A DNA stretch of 64,000 bases from Spirosoma foliorum (GTDB taxonomy: Bacteria > Bacteroidota > Bacteroidia > Cytophagales > Spirosomataceae), in NCBI RefSeq assembly GCF_014117325.1, contig NZ_CP059732.1:868001-932000 (forward strand), in the 5' to 3' direction. Positions 17,449-58,441 of this stretch are shown here, piece by piece; the first letter of the stretch is position 1, and every line of letters starts with the position of its first letter. The position numbers and the translations under genes were made by a program. The notes under the pieces were generated by a model. The model saw only the letters and a program-made list of their open reading frames with translations. It ran no database searches and was not told the origin of the DNA.

Positions 17449-17925
17449 ATGAACGATAAATTAAAACAACTTAAGGCCGCTTGCCAATTGGCCGAAATGG
17501 AGCACAATGCCGATCCAGAGCATCCCGTAAAAAAAGGCAAATTCGAGAAAGCACAGGCCGATTTTGAGCAGGCGCTGGCCGAAGAAGAACCAGCGGAGGA
17601 GCCAGCAGCCGATGGCCAGGCAACCGTAAAAAGTGAACTGGATACATTGGTAGCTATCATTGACGAGCTGGATAGTAAAAATCAGGAGCTGGCTGGCAAA
17701 AACGAGGAGCAGTTTAATGAAATTACTTTACTCAAAGAGCAGCTTAATGAGAAAAGCCAAAAATTAGAGGAGGCTCAAAAATCGGCAGCTTCAGCAGAAA
17801 CCGCTTTAGAAAAAGCCCTCAAAACAGCGGCATCTCCCAAAGCAACCACGGCCAAGCCAGCAGCAAATAAACCAGCCGAAATTCCAGCGGCCACGACTCC
17901 CGCAGCCGACGAAAAAAAAAATTAG
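17449..17925 (+). CDS. Acidic Ala-rich coiled-coil phage protein
   Basis: 158 residues. An N-terminal helix (LKQLKAACQLAEMEHNADPE) leads to an acidic Glu/Ala/Pro linker (EEEPAEEPAADGQ). Then comes a coiled coil (about 65-120) and a low-complexity Ala/Pro/Lys tail (120-158). The organisation is like a flexible structural or scaffolding protein. It lies between capsid and terminase genes. No domain family was identified. Confidence 0.5.
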   Translation: MNDKLKQLKAACQLAEMEHNADPEHPVKKGKFEKAQADFEQALAEEEPAEEPAADGQATVKSELDTLVAIIDELDSKNQELAGKNEEQFNEITLLKEQLNEKSQKLEEAQKSAASAETALEKALKTAASPKATTAKPAANKPAEIPAATTPAADEKKN

Positions 17926-43963: not shown

Positions 43964-44021
43964 ACATCCCGGTATCGTGCATTCGTACACAGCTGTGTAC
44001 GAATGCACGATACCGGGATGT
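43964..44021. repeat. 58-base perfect palindrome, no spacer
   Basis: Bases 43964-43992 and 43993-44021 are exact reverse complements, centred at 43992/43993. It lies 53 bases after the DUF5690 gene. It has no extended T-run on the plus strand beyond gttttag, so it may stop transcription or be a site of palindrome formation. The interval 43912-44155 holds no gene. Confidence 0.95.
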
Positions 44022-44155
44022 GTGTTTTAGAACTAGTATATGAGCAATAAAATGATAATCTATATCAAAATAAAAGATTATAATTAAATATATATAAAAA
44101 TAAAAAATGGTACTTTTGATTTTATTTATACCCTATATCTTGTATTTGACATTTT

Positions 44156-45335
44156 ATGAAATATGTATATCTATTGCTGAATTTGCTAACTGTAATAGCG
44201 GCTATAGCACAACCGGATTTAGACTTTCAAACCACACAAGGGGGGGTGGACTACTACTTCCTTATCAAAATCATATACTGCTGTCGGTACACCTGCTACT
44301 AACGTAACAGTATCAGTAGGCGGAACCACTAGCGGTTTACAAACTAATTCTCCTCAAGCCTTTAGTCGAGGGCTCCAACTGGCTGTTAACCATACGTCTA
44401 ACTCGGCTTGCGTTGCTGTAACGATCACCTTTAACCCCGGCTTACAAGATGTACGATTTAGAGTGTTGAACATCGATCGGGGAGCTGCCAATGGTGCTAA
44501 TTATGATTTTATCGATCAGGTTACCGTAAGCGGAATGAATGGGGCTGGAAGCGTCAGCCCAACTATTAGTGCTTCTGGTTCAGCCGGGACATATTCCAGT
44601 ATTTCGGGTAATACAATTACTGGCACTGGTGATGCACCTGCCTCTGCTTCCGACCCTGGAAATCTGGTTGTTTTTTCAGGGGCAGTTACTCAAATCACGA
44701 TTAATTACTGCAATAATGCAGCGCAGACCATTGCTAACCCTGGTGCGCAGACCATCACTATTGAGGACTTATCCTGGAGTGGCCCTTTACCCGTTCATCT
44801 TATTTCGTTTGATGGAAAAACAGTTGGTAACCAGGTCGCATTGACTTGGGAAACCGCTTGGGAGCAGAATAGTGATTACTTCGAGGTTCAGCGCAGTCAG
44901 GACGCGCGGGAGTTTTCGACGCTGGCGCGTGTACCGGCTATGGGGCAGTCAGACCGCAAAGAATTATATTCAGTGCTGGATACGGAGCCATTAAATGGCA
45001 TAAATTATTATCGACTAAAACAGGCTGATTTTGGGGCAGATCAGGGGGTGACCTATTCTCAAATCATTTCAGTTACGCTCGATGATATAACCCCTGATCT
45101 AAAAATTACTGAAAACCCGTTGAAGGGCGATCAGATTCAGGTTAGGTTTCGAAATATGGAATCCCAGACGCTATCTTTACAAACAAGTTTTGGCTTATCA
45201 ATTCCCATTCATATTAGCAAAGAATCGGAGACAAGTGCCGTTCTGACACCAACTCAACGGCTAGCTCCCGGTTTATACTTGGTCAGTGGCTATCAAGGGG
45301 CGCATCGATTGACTGCCAAAGTTTTAGTTTTATAA
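44156..45335 (+). pseudogene. T9SS surface protein broken by a frameshift at a G7 tract (possibly phase-variable)
   Basis: ATG 44156 opens with a signal peptide (MKYVYLLLNLLTVIAAIAQ) and then reads QPDLDFQTTQGG up to G7 at 44240-44246. In this frame translation stops about 20 codons after the tract. Shifting +1 (equivalent to G6) gives TTTSLSKSYTAVG... and runs without a stop through 44463 to 45335. The restored protein has a beta-sandwich module, then LPVHLISFDGKTVGNQ with LTWETAWEQNSDYFEVQRS, a segment common in T9SS cargo, and ends with PGLYLVSGYQGAHRLTAKVLVL, a type A-like sorting domain. It is exported and surface-bound when in frame. The break may be real (a switch), a recent mutation, or a base-count error. 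Confidence 0.75.
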
Positions 45336-45415
45336 AGACATTTAGTACACTCCCGTGTTCAACTAGCGAGCTTCAGGTTGTATACTGATGTAATATAAGT
45401 GTCCTTTGAGATGGA

Positions 45416-46357
45416 ATGAAACAAGTCCTCATCTTAACCGGTCTGAGCGGGAGCGGTAAAACAACCTTTGCCCGGCAATTCTGCGCCGAAAATCCAAACT
45501 GGCTGCGTGTCAATCGCGATGATCTCCGACGCAGTCTATTGTCGGTATCCCTTCAGGAGTATTGGACTACCTGGCCCGACCGGGAAAAAGATCGTCTTGA
45601 AAGTCTGGTCAGTGAAATGCAGAAAACAGCTATTCTGGATGGTTTAACACGGGGTTGGTATATTGTAATCGATAACACAACGCTAAAACTGAAGTACATC
45701 AACGAATACCGGAATCTACTTGCTAGCCATTTTGATGAGGTTAAAATCCAATACAAACTGATTGAAACCCCTACTGACGAATGCATTCGTCGCGACCAGA
45801 ATCGACCTGATTCGGTAGGAGAGGCCGTGATTCGGATGCAAGCAGAAAAGCTTACTGTCCTGAAGAAGATTTTCAAATTCCGCCCTGAAACGCTAACACG
45901 AAACCCTGTTTTTCAGCGACTCCAGGACGAGACATTACCCCATTGCGTGTTGGTTGACATTGACGGAACAGTGGCAAAACGAGGAGATCGCTCTCCGTTT
46001 GATTGGCGTCGAGTGGGTATCGATACACCCAAGTGGCCGATTATTAATCTGGTGAAATCATTACAAATATCAGGCTACACCATTATATTTCTTTCGGGCC
46101 GCGACGCTGTTTGCCGCTCCGAAACGATAAGCTGGCTTAATCATTATTTTGGCTGGAAAGCAGAAGACTATCAGTTGTTTATGCGCCCGCAACAGGACAA
46201 TCGGAAGGATGTCGACATCAAATATGAACTGTTCGAACAGCATATTCTTGGCCATTACTACGTCGAGCTCGTAGTTGACGACCGCCAGCAAGTCGTAGAT
46301 ATGTGGCGACGACAGCTTGGCCTAACCTGCGTGCAGGTGAATTATGGGGATTTTTGA
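45416..46357 (+). CDS. T4-type polynucleotide kinase/3'-phosphatase
   Basis: 313 residues. The N-terminal kinase has the P-loop GLSGSGKTT (9-17) and NRDDLRRSL, the 5'-OH acceptor site. The C-terminal HAD phosphatase has VDIDGTVAKRGDRSPFD (Asp near 181), FLSGRDAVCRSE and ELVVDDRQQVVDMWRR. The order kinase-then-phosphatase and the ending CVQVNYGDF match phage T4 Pnkp, a repair enzyme that restores 5'-phosphate and 3'-OH to broken tRNA or DNA. No ligase partner is nearby. The next genes downstream, on the other strand, include a nucleotidyltransferase with a toxin-like look, which suggests a nucleic-acid damage/repair setting. Confidence 0.9.
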   Translation: MKQVLILTGLSGSGKTTFARQFCAENPNWLRVNRDDLRRSLLSVSLQEYWTTWPDREKDRLESLVSEMQKTAILDGLTRGWYIVIDNTTLKLKYINEYRNLLASHFDEVKIQYKLIETPTDECIRRDQNRPDSVGEAVIRMQAEKLTVLKKIFKFRPETLTRNPVFQRLQDETLPHCVLVDIDGTVAKRGDRSPFDWRRVGIDTPKWPIINLVKSLQISGYTIIFLSGRDAVCRSETISWLNHYFGWKAEDYQLFMRPQQDNRKDVDIKYELFEQHILGHYYVELVVDDRQQVVDMWRRQLGLTCVQVNYGDF

Positions 46358-46405
46358 GGGAAGATTTTTAAGGTGTTAGAAAATTCTACTCTTATCAATA
46401 GAGTA

Positions 46406-46648
46406 TCAAGCGGCTTGTTCGGTAAAGTGTAATTCTGCTCGAATTGTGCCTTTGGCTTCAAGAAGGCGGGATAAGGTAGCTAAATTAGCTTCGCGCAAAT
46501 CAATATATTGTTGCACATAAGATCCTGCATCTCCAATTGAGCGATGACGATTAATGATATCGCTGTCTCGTTCAATCAGTGTCAACAGCCGTGCTATAGC
46601 TCCCGCCCGTAATTCAGTGTCCTCCAGAATTTGCTCTAATTCATTCAT
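46406..46648 (-). CDS. Small helical partner protein of the nucleotidyltransferase
   Basis: 80 residues, all helix, acidic at the N-terminus (MNELEQILEDTELRAGAIARLL) and with a C-terminal HFTEQAA. It begins 4 bases after the nucleotidyltransferase stop, so both lie in one operon. Two-gene units of a DUF6932-like nucleotidyltransferase and a small helical protein behave like toxin-antitoxin or regulator pairs in other genomes. No family name for this protein is recognised. Confidence 0.55.
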   Translation of the reverse strand: MNELEQILEDTELRAGAIARLLTLIERDSDIINRHRSIGDAGSYVQQYIDLREANLATLSRLLEAKGTIRAELHFTEQAA

Positions 46649-46652
46649 GAGT

Positions 46653-47123
46653 TTAAAAATTAAGTTGAACTATTCCTTTTTTCCGTCCTGCCAAACTAAT
46701 GCCAAAATCCTGTAGCCAACGCAGTCGATCAGATTCGTACCAATTACGCTGTCGATGATCTTCTGGATAAACCTGCACAAAATAACCATCTATAAGTTTA
46801 TTGGGCAGAAAGCGCTGCTGCCGAAAAAAAGCAGCTTGTTCTTCATGACGTGTGTAACAATCAGCATCTAGAAAAATAACGAAATCAATATCGGATGGGT
46901 TTGTTTTTCGGGTTATAAAACTACCGTCAACCCAGACAAAAAACTCTTCATTTGCGGTTATTCTGAAATTGGTTACATGCATTAAAAATGTGTCAAACAA
47001 CAGACTTCTTCTCTCCGAATCAGGAAACGCTGTTACAAACGCTTGTTTAAACTCTTCGATGGTGAGCGTAATAACAGTGTAAGGTTGCAGATTTCCATGA
47101 ACATCAAATTCGATAGAGGGCAT
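46653..47123 (-). CDS. DUF6932-like nucleotidyltransferase
   Basis: 156 residues. WVDGSFITRKTNPSDIDFVIFLD (64-86, given here as pieces) has Gly67-Ser68 and Asp78-x-Asp80, the metal and nucleotide site of Pol-beta-type nucleotidyltransferases. The size and the preceding helix (IEEFKQAFVTAFPDSERR) fit DUF6932 proteins. Members of this group can modify tRNA or protein by transferring nucleotides, in toxin-antitoxin or antiphage settings; here the target is unknown. It overlaps nothing and is followed by the small helical protein. Convergent with the Pnkp gene. Confidence 0.7.
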   Translation of the reverse strand: MPSIEFDVHGNLQPYTVITLTIEEFKQAFVTAFPDSERRSLLFDTFLMHVTNFRITANEEFFVWVDGSFITRKTNPSDIDFVIFLDADCYTRHEEQAAFFRQQRFLPNKLIDGYFVQVYPEDHRQRNWYESDRLRWLQDFGISLAGRKKGIVQLNF

Positions 47124-47307
47124 AAAAATAGTTTAAAACGCAACAATCAAGTATATATCCAAATATAGTAAAACTTGTGGGCGATACGTCCATAAGCCAT
47201 CTTCAGTTCCATTCACCTAGTTTCTAGCAAACTAAACCTATTTTCGCCCCATCTTTGTTATCCTAATAGAAGAATATGTAATACGGCGTTGAGTTCTGAG
47301 TTTATTC

Positions 47308-47339
47308 ACTCATTCACTCATTCGCTCAATCACTCATTG
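47308..47339. repeat. Imperfect tandem repeat of cactcatt before NAD synthetase
   Basis: The unit cactcatt is repeated four times with small changes (cactcattcactcattcgctcaatcactcatt). It lies 6 bases before the nadE start and could change length by slippage. The 223-base gap 47124-47345 holds no other feature. Confidence 0.7.
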
Positions 47340-47345
47340 TACTAC

Positions 47346-49430
47346 ATGAAACTCCTTAAAGTAGCCGCTGGTGTTCTGAATCAAATCCCACTTGCCTGGG
47401 AGCACAATAAAAAAAATATTATCAATGCCATCGAGGAAGCCCAGAAGCAGAATATTAGTCTGCTGTGTCTGACCGAATTGTGTATTTCGGGCTATGGCTG
47501 TGAGGATGCGTTTTTTGCCCAGAATACCATCGACCAGTCGATTGCGTCGCTGCTGGATATCGTTCAATATACCAATGACATTGCCGTGGCCGTTGGTCTG
47601 CCGCTTCGCCATAACAACCGAACATACGACACGGCCTGCCTGATTGCCAATAAGCGAATTCTGGGCTTTGCGGTAAAGCAAAATATGGCCAATAATGGCG
47701 TTCATTACGAAACCCGCTGGTTCCAGCCCTGGAATCCCTACGTTCGGGATGAGATCAAAATTGGCGATTTTACCTATCCATTTGGCGATCTGGTCTTCGA
47801 TTTGTCGGGCATTCGGGTTGGGTTCGAGATTTGCGAAGATGCCTGGGTCGCCAATCGGCCGGGGCGGATGTTGTACGAACGTGGGATTGATATTATCCTG
47901 AATCCGACGGCCAGCCACTTTGCATTCCTGAAATCGCAGGTGCGTGAGCGTTTCGTGGTCGATGCGTCGCGGGCATTTGGAGTAAGCTATGTGTACGCGA
48001 ATATGCTGGGCAATGAAGCCGGTCGAATGATTTACGATGGCGACGCTATGGTAGCCTCCAATGGTGAGCTGCTGGTGTCGGGACCGCGCTTGAGTTACGA
48101 AGATTTTCTGATCGTTCCGGCAGTGGTCGATGTTGAACTTACTCGCCTAAATCAGACACAAAGCCGTGGGAATATCGCCCTGGCGTACCCAAACCTCCGT
48201 GTATCGGATCGGTTCGACTGGCCCGACATTGCGCCCGTTATCCAGAAAGCCGAACTCGAAGCCTGGGAGCGGGGTGGTTATCTGAAAGAAGAAGAATTTG
48301 CTCGGGCCGTTGCCTTAGGCCTTTTCGATTATCTGCGAAAGAGTCGCTCGCAAGGGTATGTATTGTCGTTGAGTGGCGGAGCTGATTCGTCGGCTATTGC
48401 TGCGCTTGTATCTCTGATGATTCGGATGGCAGTGCAGAATCTTGGTCTGGATGGCGTCAAGAAAAAGCTTGGGTACATCAAAGCCATTCAGGATTGCGAA
48501 TCGCCCGAAGAGATGGTTGGTAAGTTACTCACGGTCATGTATCAGGGCACCGAAAACTCGTCGGACGATACGTTCAATTCGGCTAAAGAACTGGCTGATG
48601 ATATCGGAGCGACCTTCATGAATATCAACATCAATGGCCTGGTCGAAACATATCGGGGGCTAATTGAGGAGCAGTTAGGCCGAAAACTTTCCTGGGATAC
48701 CGATGATCTGGCGCTACAAAATATTCAGGCTCGGGTTCGTGCCCCAAGTATCTGGATGCTGGCCAATCTGAATAATGCGTTGCTGCTCACGACCTCGAAC
48801 CGCTCCGAAGCGGCCGTTGGCTATGCGACGATGGATGGTGACACAGCAGGTAGTATTTCGCCCATCACGGGAATCGATAAGCATTTTCTGCGGGGCTGGT
48901 TGCGCTGGCTCGAAACGGTTGGCCTGAACGTAAAAAACGAATCAACCCCCGCTGACCGTACTGGCTCGGTGATGGACGCAGCGGCATCCGATGATTTAAT
49001 CAAAGTGAAGGGACTACATGCGGTCAATAACCTGCAACCCACCGCCGAACTCCGTCCGTTAGACAAAAAGCAAACTGACGAAGATGATCTGATGGCCTAC
49101 GATGTGCTCAACTCCATCGAAGAGGCCGCTATTCGGGATAAGCAACCACCTGTTGAGGTGTTGAAACTGGTTGAGGTTCGGTACGCAGGTCGTTATGATC
49201 GGGAGAAGTTGCTGGTTTGGGTTGAGCGCTTTTTCAAACTCTGGAGCCGCAACCAGTGGAAACGTGAGCGTTACGCGCCTTCTTTCCACCTCGACGATCA
49301 TAACCTGGATCCGCGTTCGTGGTGCCGCTTCCCAATTCTATCGGGCGGCTTCGAAAAAGAACTCGCCGACATGCGCGACTGGGCTAATGAGCAGAAGCCA
49401 AGCGGGCGGAAAGGCAAGATTGGGTTTTAG
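47346..49430 (+). CDS. nadE: Glutamine-dependent NAD+ synthetase
   Basis: About 694 residues from ATG 47346 (MKLLKVAAGVLNQIP), the start used by homologues; an upstream ATG at 47289 would add a repeat-encoded tail. The nitrilase-like glutaminase domain (about 1-290) has the E-K-C triad in LCLTELCISGYG, FAVKQNMANNGV and VGFEICEDAW. The synthetase domain has the ATP loop SLSGGADSSAIAAL and later TSNRSEAAVGYAT. It turns nicotinate adenine dinucleotide into NAD+ using ATP and ammonia tunnelled from glutamine. Works in the same pathway as pncB at 27526. Confidence 0.95.
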   Translation: MKLLKVAAGVLNQIPLAWEHNKKNIINAIEEAQKQNISLLCLTELCISGYGCEDAFFAQNTIDQSIASLLDIVQYTNDIAVAVGLPLRHNNRTYDTACLIANKRILGFAVKQNMANNGVHYETRWFQPWNPYVRDEIKIGDFTYPFGDLVFDLSGIRVGFEICEDAWVANRPGRMLYERGIDIILNPTASHFAFLKSQVRERFVVDASRAFGVSYVYANMLGNEAGRMIYDGDAMVASNGELLVSGPRLSYEDFLIVPAVVDVELTRLNQTQSRGNIALAYPNLRVSDRFDWPDIAPVIQKAELEAWERGGYLKEEEFARAVALGLFDYLRKSRSQGYVLSLSGGADSSAIAALVSLMIRMAVQNLGLDGVKKKLGYIKAIQDCESPEEMVGKLLTVMYQGTENSSDDTFNSAKELADDIGATFMNININGLVETYRGLIEEQLGRKLSWDTDDLALQNIQARVRAPSIWMLANLNNALLLTTSNRSEAAVGYATMDGDTAGSISPITGIDKHFLRGWLRWLETVGLNVKNESTPADRTGSVMDAAASDDLIKVKGLHAVNNLQPTAELRPLDKKQTDEDDLMAYDVLNSIEEAAIRDKQPPVEVLKLVEVRYAGRYDREKLLVWVERFFKLWSRNQWKRERYAPSFHLDDHNLDPRSWCRFPILSGGFEKELADMRDWANEQKPSGRKGKIGF

Positions 49431-49480
49431 GTACACCCGTGTAACTTTGTAGAAAGCTAGTTTGTGAAAAAACGCTGATT

Positions 49481-50188
49481 ATGATCACGCCAGAAGAATT
49501 TCCCTATATCAAATCCTTGTACGTGAACGACTGTTACGCGTACAAGGATTTTAATATTGAACTACACGACTATGAACCGTTTAGCCATCTGATTCTGACG
49601 GGGAAAAATGGGTCTGGGAAGAGTACGATTCTGTTGAGCCTGAATTACTATTTATCTGGATGGCGAACTGGAGAAAATAGATGGTATAATGCCAGTTCTC
49701 TTTCTGAATATTTTGATATTCTACAAAGAGAAATAGATATGAATTTTAACTCATTTGGCCGTACAGATAGATATGTAAATTTGAGTAATGAGTTATTTAA
49801 GTATAAACGTATACTCCCATCAACTGCTTTACATGCAGAAAATTTTTGGCAGAAAAATAAACAACTTATCGTATATTCTTATTTCAAAGCTAAGCGAAAA
49901 GGCGATGCATTACCGGTAGAAGCTCCATCAAAAGAAACTGAGTTTACTAATAAGTTTAATTCGCTTGATTCGACGGAATTTTTTATTAGCAAATTCAAAC
50001 AGTATTTAGTCAACAGGAAGGTAGAGCAAGCGTTTAGTCAAATTGAATCACAGATTCAACAAGTTCATAATGTGCAGCTATTTTTTGATTCGCTTAAAGA
50101 TACGTTAAACAAGATTTTTGGAGGAGAATTAAAAGAGATCGAATTTGACCGCTCTACGTATGAGTTTTTTTTTGAATCTTACAGATAA
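49481..50188 (+). pseudogene. AAA ATPase of Septu-like system, N-terminal part (frameshifted at T9)
   Basis: Residues 1-235 of an AAA/OLD-like ATPase. Walker A GKNGSGKST at 41-49 in ILTGKNGSGKSTILLSLNYYL. From about 60 the sequence is AT-rich and helical, as in the coiled arm of PtuA-like ATPases. The frame ends after TYEFFFESYR because of T9 at 50165-50173. Removing one T joins this frame to the next part (EFFLNLTDNRR...). The rest of the ATPase is in 50145-50756. Role (Septu family knowledge): nucleotide sensing that controls the HNH partner. Whether the gene is off, slips at the T-run, or contains a sequencing error is not known. Confidence 0.7.
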
Positions 50189-50756
50189 TCGTAGACTTAC
50201 GTTTAATACACTTTCAGAGGGCTTTTCGGCCTTTATAAGCATCTTTATGGACTTGTTCATGCGTGTTGACCTAATCCGTAAACAAGTCAATGACTATACC
50301 TACAATCCCTGTGGTATTGTTCTAATAGATGAGCCTGAAACGCATTTACATCTTCAATTACAAGAACAGGTTCTACCGCTGTTAACGAGCCTGTTTCCTA
50401 ATATTCAATTTATTGCGGCTACGCATTCACCAGCCGTTATTGCCAGCATTAAAAACGCTACAATTTTTGATCTGACGACAAAGGAATCGCGTGGTAGTGA
50501 AGAAACTGTGGGGCGGAGTTATTCAGATTTGATGGTGTCGCATTTTGGTTTAGGGAATGAGTATTCGGAGACTGCCGATCTCATTATAAAGCAGGTTAAT
50601 GAGACGTTAAATAACCTCGCCGATAAACCTGCGGAAAGGAAAGCGGCTTTACAGAAAATCTATGATGAGAATAGCGCATATCTTTCTCCGACGCTGAAGG
50701 TAGAGCTGGAACTATTAACTATTCAACAGGAAGTACAGCAAGAAGCCGCCCGATGA
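50145..50756 (+). pseudogene. AAA ATPase of Septu-like system, C-terminal part
   Basis: The continuation of the ATPase in the +1 frame from the T9 tract. NTLSEGFSAF is the ABC-type signature region, GIVLIDEPETHLHLQLQEQ the Walker B with D-loop, and IQFIAATHSPAVIAS the H-loop, all typical of OLD/PtuA-like ATPases. The C-terminus is helical and charged. The stop overlaps the start of the HNH gene (ATGA at 50753-50756), so they form one transcript. As a separate ORF it would begin at 50145 or 50160, but it lacks a Walker A, so it is better read as the second half of one protein of about 425 residues. Confidence 0.7.
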
Positions 50757-51367
50757 TTAACGTAATTCGGGATGTTCCAGTCCCGCCTTCATTAGCTGCC
50801 AAGAAAGAGTACCGCAATCAGGAAGTACTTGAAGCTTTATTTAAAGTCTTTAGAGAAAAATGTTACCTGACAGAGAGAAAATTTGACAGTATGAATGAAA
50901 TGGAAATTGACCATTTTATTCCACAAAACGACCCTGCCAAGCCAATTTATGTTTGGGAAAACCTGTATGCAATCCATGAGAAAGCCAATAAGCAGAAACC
51001 TAAATCCATACCTGCTGGCGGTTATCTTGACCCATGTGATGCCAACGACGATGTTGAGTATGAGATTATCTATAAAGTTGAGTTTGGCGGAAATGCTTTG
51101 TTCAAGGCACGACATGAAGACAATATAAAGGCTGTTAATACTGCTAATTTATTAAACCATGTACACCGTGACTTGAAGCAGGCTATCAGTAATCGCCATC
51201 ATGAAGTGGTCAATGCTGTAGCTAAGTGGTATCATGCTAAACTTTCTGGAGACAGAGATAAAGAGTTTGAACAAGAATTGTTGCTTCGAAAATTTCTTTC
51301 CCGCGATAGCCAGTATACCATGCTTATGCGGGCAATTGAGGTAGTTCCCTCCGAATTCTTCGACTAA
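50753..51367 (+). CDS. HNH endonuclease of Septu-like system (PtuB-like)
   Basis: 204 residues. The HNH core reads MEIDHFIPQN (Asp-His), then WENLYAIHEKANKQKP with the Asn and Lys of the second half, separated by about 15 residues. The upstream FREKCYLTERKF fits the strand before the core. The remainder is helical. Family knowledge: in Septu, PtuA (ATPase) and PtuB (HNH nuclease) act together against phages by cutting nucleic acid. The gene is coupled to the ATPase by an ATGA overlap. It is 11 bases before an EamA transporter gene. The protein itself is intact, so a leaky or slipped ATPase could still supply a complex. Confidence 0.75.
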   Translation: MINVIRDVPVPPSLAAKKEYRNQEVLEALFKVFREKCYLTERKFDSMNEMEIDHFIPQNDPAKPIYVWENLYAIHEKANKQKPKSIPAGGYLDPCDANDDVEYEIIYKVEFGGNALFKARHEDNIKAVNTANLLNHVHRDLKQAISNRHHEVVNAVAKWYHAKLSGDRDKEFEQELLLRKFLSRDSQYTMLMRAIEVVPSEFFD

Positions 51368-51378
51368 GCCGGGTATTT

Positions 51379-52248
51379 ATGAAACAACTTATTCCCGGCC
51401 TTCTCTTTGCGGCACTTTGGGCTTCGGCTTCGGTTGCAACCAAATTTGGTGTGCAATCGGTGCATCCGTTGATTCTGGCTAACGTACGTTTTTTCATCGC
51501 TGGTGGCGGGATGCTCCTGTTTGCGTATGGCATCCAGCGAACGAAAAACGCCTGGCCTACGCGTGTAGAATTTCGTCAGTTAGCGATCTTTTCATTGCTC
51601 AATACAACAATTTACCTCGGCGCGTTTGTGCTGGCGCTGAAACAGGTATCGGCGGGTATTGGGAGCTTATCAACGGCCACCAATCCTTTATTTATTGCCT
51701 TATTATCAGCAATCTGGTTGCGTCGGCGACCGCAATTGAATGAATTAGGAGGATTGTTTCTGGGAATTTTAGGCGTCGGGATTGCGACGTATCCGCTGCT
51801 GCAAACTAGTTATGCCACCGTTGAGGGCTTATTAATTCTGCTGTTTGGTATGATCTCCGTATCGGCAGCAACGGTTTATTATGCCAGCATCCAGTGGCGA
51901 TTGCCTAACTTGGTCATCAATGGTTGGCAGGTATTGTTGGGTGGCTTTCAACTGCTCCCGTTTACTGTGCTACTGGGCGTGCTTGAGCCTACGACATTCA
52001 GCAACTCCCATTATGATCTACGTTTTTGGGGAGCGGTACTCTGGCTGATTTTACCCGTCTCGGTAGCAGCCCTGCAACTATGGTTCTATCTCGTTCGGCA
52101 AGACGCCATCCGGGCTTCGCTGTGGCTATTCCTTTGCCCGATATTCGGTTTTGCGTATTCGTATCTGCTCATGAACGAACCCATCACTCTGTATACTGTT
52201 GCAGGGACAGGGCTGGTTATTTGTGGGCTTTGGTTGGGAAGGAAATAG
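51379..52248 (+). CDS. EamA/DMT-family transporter
   Basis: 289 residues with ten hydrophobic segments in two similar halves (EamA domains at about 1-135 and 145-285). N-terminal ASASVATKFGVQSVHPLILANVRF is typical. It exports or imports small metabolites such as amino acids; the substrate is unknown. It follows the HNH gene by 11 bases but has different composition, so it need not belong to the same system. A perfect 29-bp arm hairpin begins at its stop codon. Confidence 0.88.
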   Translation: MKQLIPGLLFAALWASASVATKFGVQSVHPLILANVRFFIAGGGMLLFAYGIQRTKNAWPTRVEFRQLAIFSLLNTTIYLGAFVLALKQVSAGIGSLSTATNPLFIALLSAIWLRRRPQLNELGGLFLGILGVGIATYPLLQTSYATVEGLLILLFGMISVSAATVYYASIQWRLPNLVINGWQVLLGGFQLLPFTVLLGVLEPTTFSNSHYDLRFWGAVLWLILPVSVAALQLWFYLVRQDAIRASLWLFLCPIFGFAYSYLLMNEPITLYTVAGTGLVICGLWLGRK

Positions 52249-52324
52249 GTTTATGGTATTTTGTTTACGGTGGCTGACGCATGAGTTGCTTTCGCCAGCC
52301 ACCGTAAACAAAATACCATAAACC
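52248..52324. repeat. Perfect 29-bp arm hairpin between convergent genes
   Basis: Arms 52248-52276 and 52296-52324 are exact reverse complements with a 19-base loop. The left arm begins in the last base of the EamA stop codon, and the right arm ends 10 bases before the OmpA gene stop. An ataaacc word is duplicated at the right end. It can act as bidirectional terminator without a U-run, or as a repeat of other origin. Confidence 0.95.
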
Positions 52325-52334
52325 ATAAACCTCC

Positions 52335-53276
52335 CTACTCTTTCAACACCGTCATTTCAACCCGTCGGTTAAGTCTCCGGGTGTTTTCTGAATTATTGCT
52401 TGCTATAGGGCGGGTTGGCCCATAACCACGTGTAGCAACCCGATTTGCGGTAACACCATTCTTTACCAAATAATCTTTCACAAGCTCTACGCGCTGTTTC
52501 GAGAGCTTAAGATTCTCATCAAAATCGCCCTGGTTATCGGTATGCCCTGCTAACTCAATGACAGCGGTTGGATGATCGCGCATAAAGCCCAGGAGTTGCT
52601 CTAAAGCGGGTTGAGCATCGGGTAGTAGTTCCGCTTTGCTTTGAACAAACTGGAGAGCCTGTAACTGGGTTGTTGTGCCAGCCGCTGCCACAATAGGCGG
52701 TGGTGTATAAATCACTTTTGCATCGAGTGTCTTGGGTGGCGCTATGCGAGACGTTTGAACAACCGATGTGTTACTAGCCGCTGGTTGCTCAGATACCGGT
52801 GGCGTTGTAGCAGGACGCGTAATCGGAGGAGAGACTACCGTTGTTGCTGCCGTATGAACCGGGGAAGGGGCTGTCTTTGCGCTGGGTGGTTTTATGCCAC
52901 TGCGATACAACAGGGTTGGTATTGTCTTATGCAGCGTAGTAACATTTGGATCTGAGAATACCTGCTGTTCATCAACATCAGCATAACCTTCTGCTTTTAT
53001 TGTGACAATATAAGATTGCTTTGGGTCGAGGAGGAGTTGGTAGACGCCAGCTGTATTGGTGACTTGTTGAGTTCGAACAATGCCTTCCTGACTTTTCGCC
53101 AGAACAGTGGCCCCCACAATGGGTTGTTTGGTCTGTCCATCCAGTATTGTTCCATTAACAAGCGCCGTTCTGCCGGTTGGGGCAACTTGGTGTTGTGGTT
53201 GTGCCCAGCTTATGGATGGCGCTACATTACTCAGGCACAGGCCTCCGAAAACTACTATATACTTTGTCCAATTCAT
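52335..53276 (-). CDS. OmpA-family outer-membrane protein with carboxypeptidase-regulatory-like domain
   Basis: 313 residues: signal peptide (ending SWAQ), CarboxypepD_reg-like beta-sandwich at about 40-115 (VNGTILDGQTKQPIVGATV), a Pro/Thr-rich linker (about 130-200) and a C-terminal OmpA domain (about 205-311). That domain has IELAGHTDNQGDFDENLKLSKQR and the peptidoglycan-binding ATRGYGPTRP. It anchors to peptidoglycan from the outer membrane side and supports the envelope. It has no beta-barrel. Convergent with the EamA gene. Confidence 0.85.
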   Translation of the reverse strand: MNWTKYIVVFGGLCLSNVAPSISWAQPQHQVAPTGRTALVNGTILDGQTKQPIVGATVLAKSQEGIVRTQQVTNTAGVYQLLLDPKQSYIVTIKAEGYADVDEQQVFSDPNVTTLHKTIPTLLYRSGIKPPSAKTAPSPVHTAATTVVSPPITRPATTPPVSEQPAASNTSVVQTSRIAPPKTLDAKVIYTPPPIVAAAGTTTQLQALQFVQSKAELLPDAQPALEQLLGFMRDHPTAVIELAGHTDNQGDFDENLKLSKQRVELVKDYLVKNGVTANRVATRGYGPTRPIASNNSENTRRLNRRVEMTVLKE

Positions 53277-53480
53277 ACTTTAGAAGCAACGTTGAAACGT
53301 GTATCAAAAGTACGTCTAAATACCCGAAAGTTACTTATCGGCCCTGCCTGGTATGACTTGATTTTTGCTAACTTTTTAGGCCTCAAAAATGATACGTATT
53401 AATCTGATTTTCAGTTAGTTGTGTAGTGAAAATTACGACTCAAAAATGAACGCAAAAATGCTTATTTTCGTTAGTATTGT

Positions 53481-54563
53481 ATGACAAGGAAAACCAACGC
53501 AACGATGCATTCCCCGAACGCTCAGGCACCTCTTGCGCAAGCTTCAGCGGGCAATTTGCCGCTCGACGATAACTGGCGGAAATCTATTCCGGCGCAGGTG
53601 TTTCTGAACCATTTCTTTGCGATGGATTACCATATCCATCATCAAAACGACTTATTCGATCTCGCTAAGTTTCCCATATTTCAGCAGTTTTATGGGCGTG
53701 CGACCGACGAAAATCGTAAGGCACTGGAGAAACTATTACTGAATAGCTGGAGTGCCGAATATGCGCTGCGGATTACCCCTGTTGTCAATGACGAACAGTA
53801 TTTACAGAGTTCATTGCATTGGACGTTTCCGCAGGCATATTACAGCGCTTTATTTAGTGCACGGGCCTTTTTGGCTGTTCAGGGTATTAATGTGAGTAAC
53901 GAGGAGCTGATTCGGAAACGGATTGGCAATATGGTTGTGCGAGGCTATTATCCAGCTTCTATTGGCTATTACGCGCTTGGCCCAATTAATAGCTATCGCA
54001 TTCAGCGATTACCGATGGCGAAACGGTTTACTGTGGCAGCCAAGACTGATTTATTGCTGCCCTCGCGTGAAGGTTCGGTGCAGGTCGAACTGGCTCAGTT
54101 TCTGAAAACCACCCGCGATCAACGCGTACGAGCTTTACGTAATGCGATTCAGACGAATCCGAAAACGGCGTTGCGAAGTCCCAAAACAGGGGAGATTCTG
54201 CAAAAATTCAGTGTAGAACAATACAAGCAATTGGCTAAGCAAATTGGCTACACAACCTATTTCGATATGCTGAGTCGCCTGCGGATTTCGTCAACTAACC
54301 GCGAAATAGAGCGATTTGTCGATTCGGAAATCGATGTGAAACTGTTTCACCAGAGTTTAGTGACTATTGTTGCTCATGTGAATTCTGTACACGAAGCCTA
54401 CATTGCCAAAGCCCTTGGTATGCAGGCGTACCGCCAACTGGTTGCCAAATTGCCGTCTTACTTACAAGAGAGTTTCGTGCGCGATCGTATGAACACAGTC
54501 ATTGCACCAATGCTTGAGGAGCCACAATCAAATCAAGAGCCTTATTTACGAATGGCGGCTTAA
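53481..54563 (+). CDS. Helical hypothetical protein
   Basis: 360 residues, soluble, mainly helical, without signal peptide or membrane segments. The first 40 residues are low-complexity (Ala/Pro/Ser). WTFPQAYYSALFSARAFLAVQ resembles a HEPN-like helix pair, but no Rx4-6H motif is found, so HEPN activity is not supported. A second start ATG at 53505 is possible. It is followed by a strong terminator, is not coupled to neighbours and has its own promoter region in 53277-53480. Function unknown. Confidence 0.6.
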   Translation: MTRKTNATMHSPNAQAPLAQASAGNLPLDDNWRKSIPAQVFLNHFFAMDYHIHHQNDLFDLAKFPIFQQFYGRATDENRKALEKLLLNSWSAEYALRITPVVNDEQYLQSSLHWTFPQAYYSALFSARAFLAVQGINVSNEELIRKRIGNMVVRGYYPASIGYYALGPINSYRIQRLPMAKRFTVAAKTDLLLPSREGSVQVELAQFLKTTRDQRVRALRNAIQTNPKTALRSPKTGEILQKFSVEQYKQLAKQIGYTTYFDMLSRLRISSTNREIERFVDSEIDVKLFHQSLVTIVAHVNSVHEAYIAKALGMQAYRQLVAKLPSYLQESFVRDRMNTVIAPMLEEPQSNQEPYLRMAA

Positions 54564-54619
54564 CAGTATATTACGTTTAGAGCCGTGCCACGGTTCAGAG
54601 CGAAAGTCCTGACAAGTTG

Positions 54620-54652
54620 AAAGCCCGATGCAGTAATACATCGGGCTTTTTT
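54620..54652 (+). terminator. Intrinsic terminator after the 53481 gene
   Basis: Aaagcccgatg (54620-54630) and catcgggcttt (54639-54649) pair around an 8-base loop, then T6. The gap 54564-54891 contains this, then AT-rich DNA with the ahpC promoter; no further gene was seen. Confidence 0.88.
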
Positions 54653-54785
54653 GTGTGTATTGGTAAAATCATAATTTGGATGATTTTGATCAATTGCATT
54701 ATTCTTTAAAGAATATAGAAGTCAGGGCTTATTAGCTTAAGATCGTAGTGGACTGAATATCACTATAATTCCTGGAAATTGATAG

Positions 54786-54813
54786 TTTTTATCTATAAGC
54801 TCATTGATAAAAA
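54786..54813. promoter_or_regulatory. Inverted repeat upstream of ahpC, candidate OxyR or operator site
   Basis: Tttttatc (54786-54793) and gataaaaa (54806-54813) form an 8-bp inverted repeat with a 12-base spacer, 78 bases before the ahpC start. OxyR and other LysR factors bind T-N11-A type dyads. No in vitro or motif scan was done. Confidence 0.35.
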
Positions 54814-54891
54814 TCATATCTTCTATGCGTATTGCTTCCGTAATTTGCACTCAATCAAGATTGGTTCTCATATACAACCTCAATACATTCC

Positions 54892-55446
54892 ATGAAAAAT
54901 CATATCGTTTCTGTTGGTTCAGAATTCCCAGAGTTTAAAAAGCTGGCTGTTGTTTCGCTCGATAAAGACAAAGAGTTCTACGAAATCTCTTCGGAAGATC
55001 ACAAAAATGCGGGTCAGTGGCTGGTCATGTTCTGGTGGCCTAAAGATTTCACCTTCGTTTGCCCAACTGAAATCGCTGAGTTCAACAACAAGTTTGAAGA
55101 TTTCCAGGATCGCGATACAATGGTGATCGGTGCTTCGACCGATAGCGAATTTGTTCATCTGGCATGGCGCAAAAACCACGACGATCTGCGTGGTCTGAAA
55201 TTCCCAATGCTGGCTGATACCTCGAAGTCGCTTGCTGAAGAACTAGGTATCCTGGAAGCCAACGAGAAAGTGGCTTATCGTGTAACGTACATCGTTGATC
55301 CACAAGGTATTGTTCGTTGGGTTGCTGTTAACGATCTGTCTGTTGGCCGGAACGTGAATGAGGTAATTCGCGTGTTGGACGCCCTGCAAACCGATGAACT
55401 TTGCCCATGCAACTGGGTAAAAGGCGAAGCTACGCTAACGGCTTAA
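54892..55446 (+). CDS. ahpC: Peroxiredoxin AhpC
   Basis: 184 residues. FTFVCPTEIAEF has the peroxidatic Cys57, and the C-terminus LCPCNWVKG has the resolving Cys at 171 or 173. YGAST-type segment reads MVIGASTDSEFVHLAWRK. It reduces hydrogen peroxide and organic peroxides to water or alcohols. The CPC ending is typical of AhpC proteins reduced by AhpD or a thioredoxin-like system rather than AhpF. An AhpD-like gene follows, and OxyR lies at 58604, so this is the peroxide response group. Confidence 0.93.
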   Translation: MKNHIVSVGSEFPEFKKLAVVSLDKDKEFYEISSEDHKNAGQWLVMFWWPKDFTFVCPTEIAEFNNKFEDFQDRDTMVIGASTDSEFVHLAWRKNHDDLRGLKFPMLADTSKSLAEELGILEANEKVAYRVTYIVDPQGIVRWVAVNDLSVGRNVNEVIRVLDALQTDELCPCNWVKGEATLTA

Positions 55447-55453
55447 TTTAATG

Positions 55454-55527
55454 TTGAATGATTGAGTGATAGAATGAGTGAATAAGCCACTGAGTTTAGT
55501 CAACCATTCAATCACTCAATCATTCTA
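55454..55527. repeat. 23-base inverted repeat of gaatgattgagtg words between ahpC and ahpD-like gene
   Basis: Arms 55454-55476 and 55505-55527 pair with two mismatches; a longer but poorer pairing covers 33 bases each. The arms are made of atga/gagtg words. It fills the gap between the two genes of the operon. Confidence 0.75.
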
Positions 55528-55543
55528 TCATTCAATATTAATC

Positions 55544-56131
55544 ATGACAACCACACAAAACGAAACCGTTCTGTCGCTTCTGAAACTGGTAGGACTGGGT
55601 GCAGAAGCTGAATACCCTGCTTTGGATGCGTTGGCAAAAGCCGATCATCGGTACCTGCGCGATCTGAAAATCAATGTGGGCAATGTGCTTAACAGCAGTC
55701 AAACGCTGACAAAGAAAGAAGCTTTATTATTGGCTTTGTCGGTAGCGGTCAATGAAAAGCTTCAGCCACTGGTTGATTCATTGACAAGTGCTGCTCAGCA
55801 GGAAGGGGCAACCGATGCCGAAGTTGCCGAAACGATTGCCTGTACTTCTTTACTGAGTACCAACAACATATTCTATCGGTTCCGTCACTTTGTTGGTAAG
55901 GATTATTACCAGCAGACTCAACCCGGCATTCGCATGAGTATCATGATGAATCCGGTGCTGGGAAAAGAGTTTTTCGAACTGATGAGCCTTGCCGTATCGG
56001 CAGTTAATGGTTGTGAACTCTGCGTTCGGTCGCACGAAGAAAGTGTGCTGAAACATGGCGCTACCGAAGCTCGGGTTTTTGAAGCTATCCGATTGGCTTC
56101 GGTTATCAAAGGTTTTATTACGTTACTGTAA
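55544..56131 (+). CDS. AhpD-like alkylhydroperoxidase (carboxymuconolactone decarboxylase family)
   Basis: About 195 residues from ATG 55544; the ORF open at 55478 only adds repeat-encoded residues. NGCELCVRSHEESVLKHG is the CxxC...His catalytic site of AhpD. Helical bundle otherwise. It can pass electrons to AhpC via the CELC disulfide, replacing AhpF. Forms an operon with ahpC, with an inverted repeat in the gap. Confidence 0.88.
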   Translation: MTTTQNETVLSLLKLVGLGAEAEYPALDALAKADHRYLRDLKINVGNVLNSSQTLTKKEALLLALSVAVNEKLQPLVDSLTSAAQQEGATDAEVAETIACTSLLSTNNIFYRFRHFVGKDYYQQTQPGIRMSIMMNPVLGKEFFELMSLAVSAVNGCELCVRSHEESVLKHGATEARVFEAIRLASVIKGFITLL

Positions 56132-56327
56132 GAGGATACAGGCTTCTGTTTGGGAGAGCAATTAAAATGAGAGTCCAGGAAACATTACTAGATGAAGATG
56201 CGTTAAAGGATAGTAACGCATATATAGTCTGGTACCAGATATAAGAAATATAGTATGTTGCTACTGTCATGACTGTTGCAATAAATTGCCTCTTATAGTC
56301 TTCAGTACTGTATCTGCCGTAATGTAA

Positions 56328-56364
56328 AGCCCGCTTTCTTTAATAAGAAGCGGGCTCTTTTTTT
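56328..56364 (+). terminator. Intrinsic terminator after the ahpC-ahpD operon
   Basis: Agcccgctt and aagcgggct pair across tcttaataag, then c-t7. It ends the peroxidase operon 200 bases downstream of the stop. The interval 56132-56327 before it is AT-rich, with no gene seen. Confidence 0.85.
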
Positions 56365-56370
56365 ATTAGA

Positions 56371-56453
56371 TTTTTGTCATTTCGACGTAGGAGAAATCTT
56401 AAAGGTCATTATAAGTCAAGCCTGAGATTCCTCCTGCGTCGGAATGACAAAAA
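56371..56453. repeat. 29-base inverted repeat of the GTCATTCCGACG type
   Basis: Arms 56371-56399 and 56425-56453 pair with three mismatches, all C/T or G/A so that G-U pairs would keep the RNA stem. The core gtcattccgacgcaggagga is one of the dispersed repeats common in Bacteroidota (recognition from memory). It lies 29 bases before the stop of hemH. Confidence 0.85.
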
Positions 56454-56481
56454 ATCATCCAGTTTAAATAAAACCTTCACC

Positions 56482-57543
56482 TTATGCTGTTTTCACCAAG
56501 TCGATCAGGGCTTCAATCCAGATGGGGCTATCGTTCAGGCTTTCAACCAATTGCCAGTGCTTACCGCCCGCCTGTTCAAATAATTCTTTGTACTCTACAC
56601 CAACTTCAATAGTCGTCTCTAAACAATCGGCGACAAAAGCGGGCGAAAAGGCCAGTACGCTCTTAATCCCTTTTGCGGGCAATTCCTTAATAATATCGTC
56701 GGTATACGGTTTAATCCAGGGATCGCTACCTAGCCGCGACTGAAAACAGGTTGTGTATTTACCTTCGGGGATACCCAATGCCTGCACAAGCAGACGGGTT
56801 GTCTCGAAACACTGTGCCCGGTAGCAATGCTGATTTAGCGCATGGAATGTATTGCAGCACTCGCCAAACTGACAAACTGTTTTTGTAACATCACCCTTCC
56901 GAATCTGACTTTCGGGTAAGCCGTGATAGCTAAACAGGAAATGGTCGTAATCGTAAGTTGTCATGTACTTACGGGCGATTTGCGCAAAACCTTCGATGAA
57001 TTTTGGATGCTCCAGAAAGCGATTGACGAACCGAATAGCTGGGATTACGTCCCAACTTTTGACGAGTTCCATTACCTTCTGGTAAACAGAGCCGGTCGAC
57101 GCTGACGCATATTGTGGGAAAAATGGGACGACCACAATATCCGTTAAGCCTAATTTTTGAAACTCATTCAACCCCGCTTCTATACTAGGGCTCTGGTACC
57201 GCATAGCCAGTTTTACTACGTACTCATCGCCGAGTTGTTGCTGGAGTTCCTTCTCCACAATATGGCCGTAATACTTTAAAGGCGAGCCCGTTTCGGTCCA
57301 GAGTTGCTTGTAAATTTTAGCCGATTTCGGTGCCCGAAATGGAGCAATGATGCCATTGACAAGAAAAAAACGCGACACATAAGAGATGTCGATTACCCGA
57401 CCATCCATCAGAAATTCGCGCAGATATTTACGGACATCCGGAACCGAAGGGCTGTCGGGTGTACCTAGATTAACGATCAATACGCCCGTTTTTCCTACCG
57501 ATTTTGGAGCGGAAACGCGAGGTTGAAAAGCAGAAACTTCCAT
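56482..57543 (-). CDS. hemH: Ferrochelatase
   Basis: 353 residues. VLIVNLGTPDSPS (about 22-34) is the typical start, FLFSYHGLPESQ has the catalytic His (about 205), and LAFSPAFVADCLETTIE carries the metal-site Glu. It inserts iron into protoporphyrin IX to form haem. Lies between the peroxidase operon and oxyR, an arrangement that links haem supply with peroxide defence. Convergent with ahpD-like gene. Confidence 0.93.
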   Translation of the reverse strand: MEVSAFQPRVSAPKSVGKTGVLIVNLGTPDSPSVPDVRKYLREFLMDGRVIDISYVSRFFLVNGIIAPFRAPKSAKIYKQLWTETGSPLKYYGHIVEKELQQQLGDEYVVKLAMRYQSPSIEAGLNEFQKLGLTDIVVVPFFPQYASASTGSVYQKVMELVKSWDVIPAIRFVNRFLEHPKFIEGFAQIARKYMTTYDYDHFLFSYHGLPESQIRKGDVTKTVCQFGECCNTFHALNQHCYRAQCFETTRLLVQALGIPEGKYTTCFQSRLGSDPWIKPYTDDIIKELPAKGIKSVLAFSPAFVADCLETTIEVGVEYKELFEQAGGKHWQLVESLNDSPIWIEALIDLVKTA

Positions 57544-57652
57544 GTACAGGAAAATAGAGATTTAACTGGGTTGGTTTAGTCCCAGGCTCAAGGCTACAAA
57601 TTTACGACATCGAAGCCTGAATCGCATCGGCAACCTGCCTGAAACGTTGAAC

Positions 57653-58441
57653 TTACTTTGCTCCGGGATATCGACTTAAGTCTGTACGGGTAAAGTCACT
57701 AAACACTTCGCCGGGTAAGCCCGAAAAGATCATAATATCACTTAATTCATAGTCACCCCGGTCGCTGGCAAGCAGAATGTCACCATGTTGCTGATAGTCT
57801 TCCCAAGGAAGTGTGAATGTGGGTTGATTATCAGTGGTTTTTTGGAAATGAGCCCATTGCGATACCAGGTGCGTTTTTTTGTCTACCCACACTTTATACC
57901 GGGCACCGGGCGTGTTGCTGCCAGGTTTAAAGGTCACTTGTAGCACATCCGAAGCTTTTCCCGTTTGGGTAGGTTCTGCTCCAAGATACTTAAGCGTTAC
58001 GCCTGCGTCTTTAAGTTTAAAGGGCATGAACAGCCAATAGGAATCGTTAATCCAGTTTCGTTTGCCTTGCTTGACATACTTCGTTACCGAATCGACGACC
58101 GTTAATTCTTCACCACGTCGGAAAACCCGGCCCATGTCATTGTTGATATTTAGTAACACCGTCTGATCGTCGTGCAGATTATCGACCCGAACATCCCCCG
58201 ACCATTTATCCCAGATGAGTTTTCGAACACCATCAAAATTCCAGGTGATGAGTTGTGTTTCGTCCCAGGCTGCCCGCCCACCCATAGCTGCCATCACTTC
58301 GTCGGCGATTTGTACCGCCCGTGGGTCCGAACCGGCTATGTCGAAACCTGGTGCGGGTGGATTCGGTGTTTTTTTTGATTGAGCGTTACAAAACGGCCCA
58401 GCAAGCAAAAGAAAGAGCAGGAAAAGTCGATGTTTATTCAT
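57653..58441 (-). CDS. Exported protein of LolA-like fold
   Basis: 262 residues with signal peptide MNKHRLFLLFLLLAGPFCNA followed by QSKKTP. The body is beta-rich with a single-sheet pattern (TWNFDGVRKLIWDKWSGDVRV, VLQVTFKPGSNTPGARYKVWVDKKTHLVSQWAHF) as in outer-membrane lipoprotein-sorting and related proteins. Cys18 is inside the signal peptide but no standard lipobox is seen. Lies 109 bases from hemH on the same strand and may share its promoter region. Function not known. Confidence 0.65.
   Translation of the reverse strand: MNKHRLFLLFLLLAGPFCNAQSKKTPNPPAPGFDIAGSDPRAVQIADEVMAAMGGRAAWDETQLITWNFDGVRKLIWDKWSGDVRVDNLHDDQTVLLNINNDMGRVFRRGEELTVVDSVTKYVKQGKRNWINDSYWLFMPFKLKDAGVTLKYLGAEPTQTGKASDVLQVTFKPGSNTPGARYKVWVDKKTHLVSQWAHFQKTTDNQPTFTLPWEDYQQHGDILLASDRGDYELSDIMIFSGLPGEVFSDFTRTDLSRYPGAK

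Follow-up and report, generated by a model that had tools for sequence, protein, structure and literature searches.

A Septu (PtuA-PtuB) pair of Spirosoma foliorum with a frame break at a T9 run, most likely a homopolymer-length error of the nanopore assembly

The systems closest to the locus described here are those of the Septu family, in which the genes for an ABC-type ATPase, PtuA, and an HNH nuclease, PtuB, lie adjacent and overlap. PMC13096335 describes an E. coli Septu system, EcB88, whose anti-phage activity needs both proteins, PtuA with its ATPase motifs and PtuB with its HNH residues, and reports cleavage of host tRNA-Tyr in the course of phage infection; according to PMC11555353, another E. 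coli Septu system reportedly acts on nicked DNA. PtuAB pairs also occur as effectors of the retrons Ec78 and Eco7. In addition, genes have been described whose frame is broken at a 9-base T run with the remainder lying in another frame; according to PMC1088944, 9A/9T runs form a recognised class of slippage sites, and a gene broken at one may not be dead.

In the window, by which we mean the whole 64-kb stretch of the S. foliorum genome that was analysed, a ptuA gene and a ptuB gene lie side by side on the forward strand. The first frame of ptuA (49481..50188, 235 aa) runs from an ATG at 49481 to a TAA ending at 50188 and contains a T9 tract at 50165..50173. The +1 frame has a stop at 50130, is open from just 3' of it to a TGA ending at 50756, holds a TTG at 50145 and carries the second piece of the gene (50172..50756). 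What we take to be the Walker A motif of the first piece begins at 49601, and presumed signature, Walker B and H-loop motifs lie at 50211, 50313 and 50415 in the second. When searched separately against the PADLOC PtuA1 model (PDLC00268), the two pieces matched consecutive parts, namely model positions 4-226 (2.6e-23) and 230-402 (3.5e-44), and they align end to end with nine intact orthologues, from which we conclude that both belong to one gene. Pfam places AAA_23 in the first piece and both AAA_21 and AAA_15 in the second, and the NCBIfam PtuA model matches with 6.3e-25, well under its 500-bit cut-off. Downstream, ptuB (50753..51367, 204 aa) has its best match among the PtuB models of PADLOC in PtuB1 (PDLC00331, 6.1e-25); in the alignment H54, N70 and N79 lie within its conserved HNH region, and Pfam gives HNH as a sub-threshold match only. 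The sequence-only reading had described an ATPase frame that ends at T9 and resumes in the +1 frame with signature, Walker B and H-loop, followed by an HNH gene overlapping the ATPase stop. The open reading frames and motif positions confirm the former, and the ATG of ptuB at 50753, which overlaps the TGA of ptuA as ATGA, confirms the latter.

The same reading had called the locus a Septu-like ATPase/HNH pair, and the PtuA and PtuB profile matches in PADLOC, together with PDB matches of the ATPase, bear this out. A gene for a PtuA-family ATPase adjoins one for a PtuB-family HNH protein, the gene order is the same in relatives, and the four ATPase motifs and the HNH residues are all present. 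The locus differs from characterised Septu systems in that the deposited ptuA lies in two frames, with its motifs spread across both, and in that activity and target are here predicted from the genes alone. The continuous PtuA frame expected of a Septu system is interrupted at T9 in the deposited sequence and present in 9/9 full-length orthologues; as deposited, the sequence would thus encode no working PtuA, and the locus is classed as Septu by homology. By sequence, the best PDB matches of PtuA are the retron Ec78 ATPases (8.2e-17 for the second half), with the PtuA structure 8ee4 ranking lower, and PtuB gave no PDB match of note. The likeness to the retron-Ec78/Eco7 effectors lies in this second half of PtuA, whereas the retron parts are missing: an Rfam search of 49000-52500 found no retron RNA, its five hits (E up to 0.1) being microRNA families below their gathering scores, and the list of open reading frames in 44000-58000, read by eye, contains no reverse transcriptase. 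Assignment to retron type I-A was rejected because there is neither a reverse transcriptase nor an msr-msd RNA and the neighbours encode an NAD synthetase and an EamA protein. From the PADLOC matches, the missing retron RNA and these neighbours, we classify the locus as a standalone PtuA-PtuB pair, a known kind of system.

Close PtuA proteins were found in 10/36 Spirosoma genomes searched, including S. foliorum itself with its two pieces. The nine other full-length orthologues are single frames of 399-431 codons; a second, partial copy in the metagenome bin G026 (residues 1-168, ended by the contig end) is not among the nine that were judged. At the position of the break these orthologues read EF(F/Y)(L/I) in mixed codons and none has a long T run, so the T9 tract is no conserved slippage site, and the conservation in relatives that marks contingency loci and slippage decoding is found in 0/9. 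Long T runs do exist in Spirosoma ptuA genes, since the intact ptuA of S. profusum has a T9 elsewhere in the gene. The motif as such is not rare in S. foliorum: there are 195 genome-wide T9 matches (both strands, overlapping ones included), and the window holds two T runs of at least 9 where a first-order model expects about 0.9. The window's ptuA has two private changes at the 162 columns in which all nine orthologues agree, compared with 0-12 for the other orthologues in the same leave-one-out count, and by this measure the pieces appear free of decay. Among wider relatives, 34 of the 35 checked loci (80 were fetched from named genomes) read through the aligned part without an internal frame break, four of the 35 having a stop in the aligned stretch that is merely the gene end; the one frame-split ptuA lies in a Taibaiella metagenome bin (L078). 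The same two-frame arrangement in close relatives, which, with separate conserved functions, the sequence-only reading had named as evidence against its own proposal, occurs in none of them. Taken together, the intact orthologues, the private tract and the undecayed pieces indicate that ptuA was ancestrally one frame and that the break, if it is real at all, is very young.

The alignments brought out some further features. In Spirosoma PtuA, unlike the characterised proteins, a variable stretch of about residues 52-130 (window 49634-49870), hardly alignable across species, lies between almost invariant flanks and is a possible sensor or specificity region. In a Rudanella bin (L079) the reading of ptuB stops early, yet the protein match continues. 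A contig titled Flavobacterium sp. SUN052 (NZ_JAPQNS010000016.1) carries the genes in the same order with PtuA, nadE and eamA 61, 75 and 68 percent identical to Spirosoma, and its label or the contig may belong to another family.

The published genome of S. foliorum PL0132T (8,853,064 bp) was obtained by nanopore sequencing with Guppy 3.2.10, Canu 2.0 and Medaka at 76x, with a BUSCO value of 94.4 (PMC10482864). Illumina and PacBio are absent from the main text of that paper, and as far as it tells the assembly is nanopore-only. It counts 7,408 genes, with 7,126 protein-coding genes, 9 rRNAs and 44 tRNAs, which by subtraction leaves 229 others, perhaps mostly pseudogenes. The pore version is uncertain, since the flow cell FLO-MIN106 is termed R10.3 in PMC10482864 whereas R10.3 corresponds to FLO-MIN111 in PMC9973852. 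For Flye assemblies of R10.3 data polished with Medaka, the latter gives a rate of 0.44 indels per 100 kb, which amounts to about 39 indels in a genome of this size, a figure that may differ here because Canu and an older basecaller were used.

Frame breaks at long A/T runs are in excess in this assembly. We sampled part of the S. foliorum genome (G000), taking first 80 A/T runs of at least 9 from 60 stretches and the window, for which the first 100 T9 places, reaching to 3.25 Mb, were used, and then 22 such runs from 20 further stretches, a second sample that drew 21/33 T9-then-G places past 3.25 Mb; runs less than 450 bases from a stretch end were left out. Together these comprised 82 noncoding runs, 12 in long open frames and eight with broken-frame geometry, two of which were not counted after their translations had been read and searched with Pfam. 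One of these (L161) is an integrase-core transposase with an upstream orfA-like frame, a pair of the kind in which IS3-type elements use a programmed frameshift; the other, at window position 17912, reads as a boundary between two genes. This leaves 6/18 coding runs frame-broken, all six shifted in one direction. The same script found 0/15 in G007, whose 54 runs come from the full set of 59 listed places, and 0/6 in G015, for which places up to 2.58 Mb were covered (34 runs) and the end of a gene for a pterin-binding enzyme, identified by Pfam (L256), was set aside; both are other Spirosoma genomes, which may or may not be nanopore assemblies. The difference between 6/18 and 0/21 has p = 0.006.

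Apart from the break in ptuA, the five breaks lie at A/T runs of 9-11 in a glycosyltransferase gene (L137:6513), a gene for a DUF11-type protein (L149:2012), a DnaD-like gene (L173:1984), a gene for a ThuA/GSDH/cytochrome c protein with an A11 run (L308:1964) and a gene for a dynamin-like protein (L316:1998). The DUF11-type and DnaD-like cases were judged by reading of the translations only, and without them the comparison becomes 4/16 versus 0/21 (p = 0.028). For the ThuA/GSDH/cytochrome c gene, a query spanning the break matches without an internal stop in 34/35 other genomes (E 7e-79 or better, 61-96 percent identity), the weakest of which could be paralogues, since the genus has several related genes; G026 has weaker matches only, and in G032 the surrounding open frame, at 596 codons, is shorter. 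Since nearly the whole genus keeps the gene, its break here is more easily a miscall than a switch. The dynamin-like gene has no match in the 35 other genomes, and its status as one original gene rests on a single Pfam family that spans both pieces. Twelve coding long runs are intact, and thus the assembly is often right at such places.

As for the background of this count, break-like geometry was present at 15, 28 and 18 of 3000 random positions in G000, G007 and G015, which, uninspected, puts the background from geometry alone at about 1-2 percent for coding positions. Among 264 coding runs of 6-8 from the S. foliorum sample, two were break-like, and neither reads as a single split protein. 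Break-like cases at runs of 6-7 or at G/C runs numbered one in G000, six in G007 and two in G015, with one more (L309) in the second S. foliorum sample; their translations, read by eye, suggest gene boundaries in most cases and a single split protein in none. Separately, the nadE-eamA region of G032 (L292) has frame changes in the nadE end, in an SNF2 helicase gene and in the gene of its partner, and this genome may be another error-rich assembly.

We consider it most likely, with a probability of about 0.75, that the break in ptuA is a homopolymer-length error of the nanopore-only assembly. This reading rests on the nanopore and Medaka origin of the sequence, the six same-direction breaks among 18 coding runs against none of 21, the unbroken ThuA/GSDH/cytochrome c gene, the lack of decay, the nine open orthologues and the published indel rate. 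A genome with one T fewer, which would give a single protein of about 425 residues and which the sequence-only reading had listed as an observation that would count against it, thus becomes the most likely state; the living strain probably has an intact ptuA, its real tract being, we infer, in frame. The idea of a system switched or tuned by slippage is not upheld, because the tract is private, the nine orthologues are intact without it, five similar breaks occur elsewhere and the assembly is nanopore-only as far as we are told. Slippage does occur at genuine T runs, and its typical targets are genes for glycosyltransferases, surface proteins and defence, so that a part of the six breaks may be genuine. 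We find nothing in the sequence that favours either of the two slippage explanations considered below.

The first of these, which we regard as unlikely although clearly the best of the alternatives, is that T9 is real and that a recent replication slip broke ptuA, leaving the system in an accidental off state that a later slip could restore, or else as a young pseudogene. A T9 run is prone to slippage, and the undecayed pieces would fit a young event. If so, PtuB alone would probably be harmless and the system off: PtuA or PtuB singly gave no growth arrest in retron-Eco7, according to PMC11555353, which suggests that a broken ptuA would be tolerated. Against this stand the excess of like breaks in a nanopore-only assembly, including the one in the ThuA/GSDH/cytochrome c gene, which 34/35 other genomes have without a break, and the lack of the tract in all nine orthologues.

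Far less probable is a real T9 on which RNA polymerase slips, in which case part of the transcripts would encode full-length PtuA and the dose of a toxic system would be tuned. Base skipping by the E. coli enzyme on T8 has an efficiency of about 10 percent (PMC6260861), and the break resembles the 9A/9T class (PMC1088944) in its 9-base T run and in the remainder lying in another frame. Unlike slippage sites of that class, however, the run here is conserved in 0/9 orthologues, and a sequencing error is the simpler and likelier explanation. We give equally little credence to T9 as a dose setter with most transcripts encoding dead PtuA, slipped ones encoding a working protein and slips in the DNA giving rise to fully switched-on cells, a state in which a clone would be a mixture of defended and undefended cells. 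A genuine split ATPase made of two cooperating polypeptides is very improbable: both pieces are open and undecayed and the second frame has its TTG at 50145, but the break falls within one domain and close relatives lack the arrangement, and among the 35 checked loci L078 is the one that is frame-split.

The surroundings of the pair are informative in their own right. Upstream lies nadE, encoding a glutamine-dependent NAD synthetase (47289..49430, forward strand, with a mechanical TTG start; Pfam NAD_synthase 7.2e-30, CN_hydrolase 1.4e-22), and downstream a gene for an EamA-family transporter (51379..52248, forward strand; Pfam EamA 1.9e-29). We read the region 3' of nadE in 34 genomes, that of S. 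foliorum included; G028 has no nadE match, G026 was seen through L048 only, and L293 and L294, which lie beside second nadE copies, were set aside. In 30/34 genomes eamA follows within 10 kb, and the gap (window 49331-52248; L266-L300) is a variable slot in Spirosoma. Its contents fall into overlapping classes: PtuAB in nine genomes, a DUF433/DUF5615 pair in eight (two of them also with PtuAB), a PIN-domain pair in four, an SNF2 helicase with a partner of unknown kind in three, no gene in 11, and in G029 a small reverse ORF only. Two or more cassettes are present in six genomes, if a fragment in G018 is included, and three of the six (G007, G034 and G022) carry a copied nadE 3' end at a cassette border. 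These copies are clearly nearest to the nadE of their own genome in G007 and G034, and only slightly so in G022 (92.1 percent, versus 91.4 percent to the window's nadE). Recombination at the nadE end may be the route by which cassettes are gained and lost. A literature search for a defence hotspot at nadE found no relevant report. Further downstream, between eamA and an OmpA-like gene on the opposite strand, a hairpin at 52235-52334 gives sub-threshold Rfam microRNA matches and is probably a terminator.

A promoter-like motif, TTG-N19-TAACTTTG, overlaps the nadE stop (49420..49449, forward strand) and, with spacers of 19-22, occurs in 9/9 PtuAB slots compared with 0/27 other regions, the first 330 bases having been scanned. 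We take this motif to fit the consensus of Bacteroidetes promoters. Given an intact ptuA, the pair would be transcribed from this putative promoter of its own, and PtuA would assemble with PtuB as in the studied relatives. Upon phage infection the complex would be expected to cut nucleic acid, either phage DNA or host tRNA-Tyr depending on the family member, and phage multiplication would then stop.

Finally, where a reference genome rests on nanopore reads only, genes that contain long A/T runs can be mistaken for pseudogenes or phase-variable genes, and the type-strain genome of S. foliorum is probably misread at further places. The slot may be the more useful result: depending on the species it holds Septu, toxin-antitoxin-like pairs, several cassettes or none, and it offers a simple natural system for the gain and loss of small defence modules that lack an integrase of their own.
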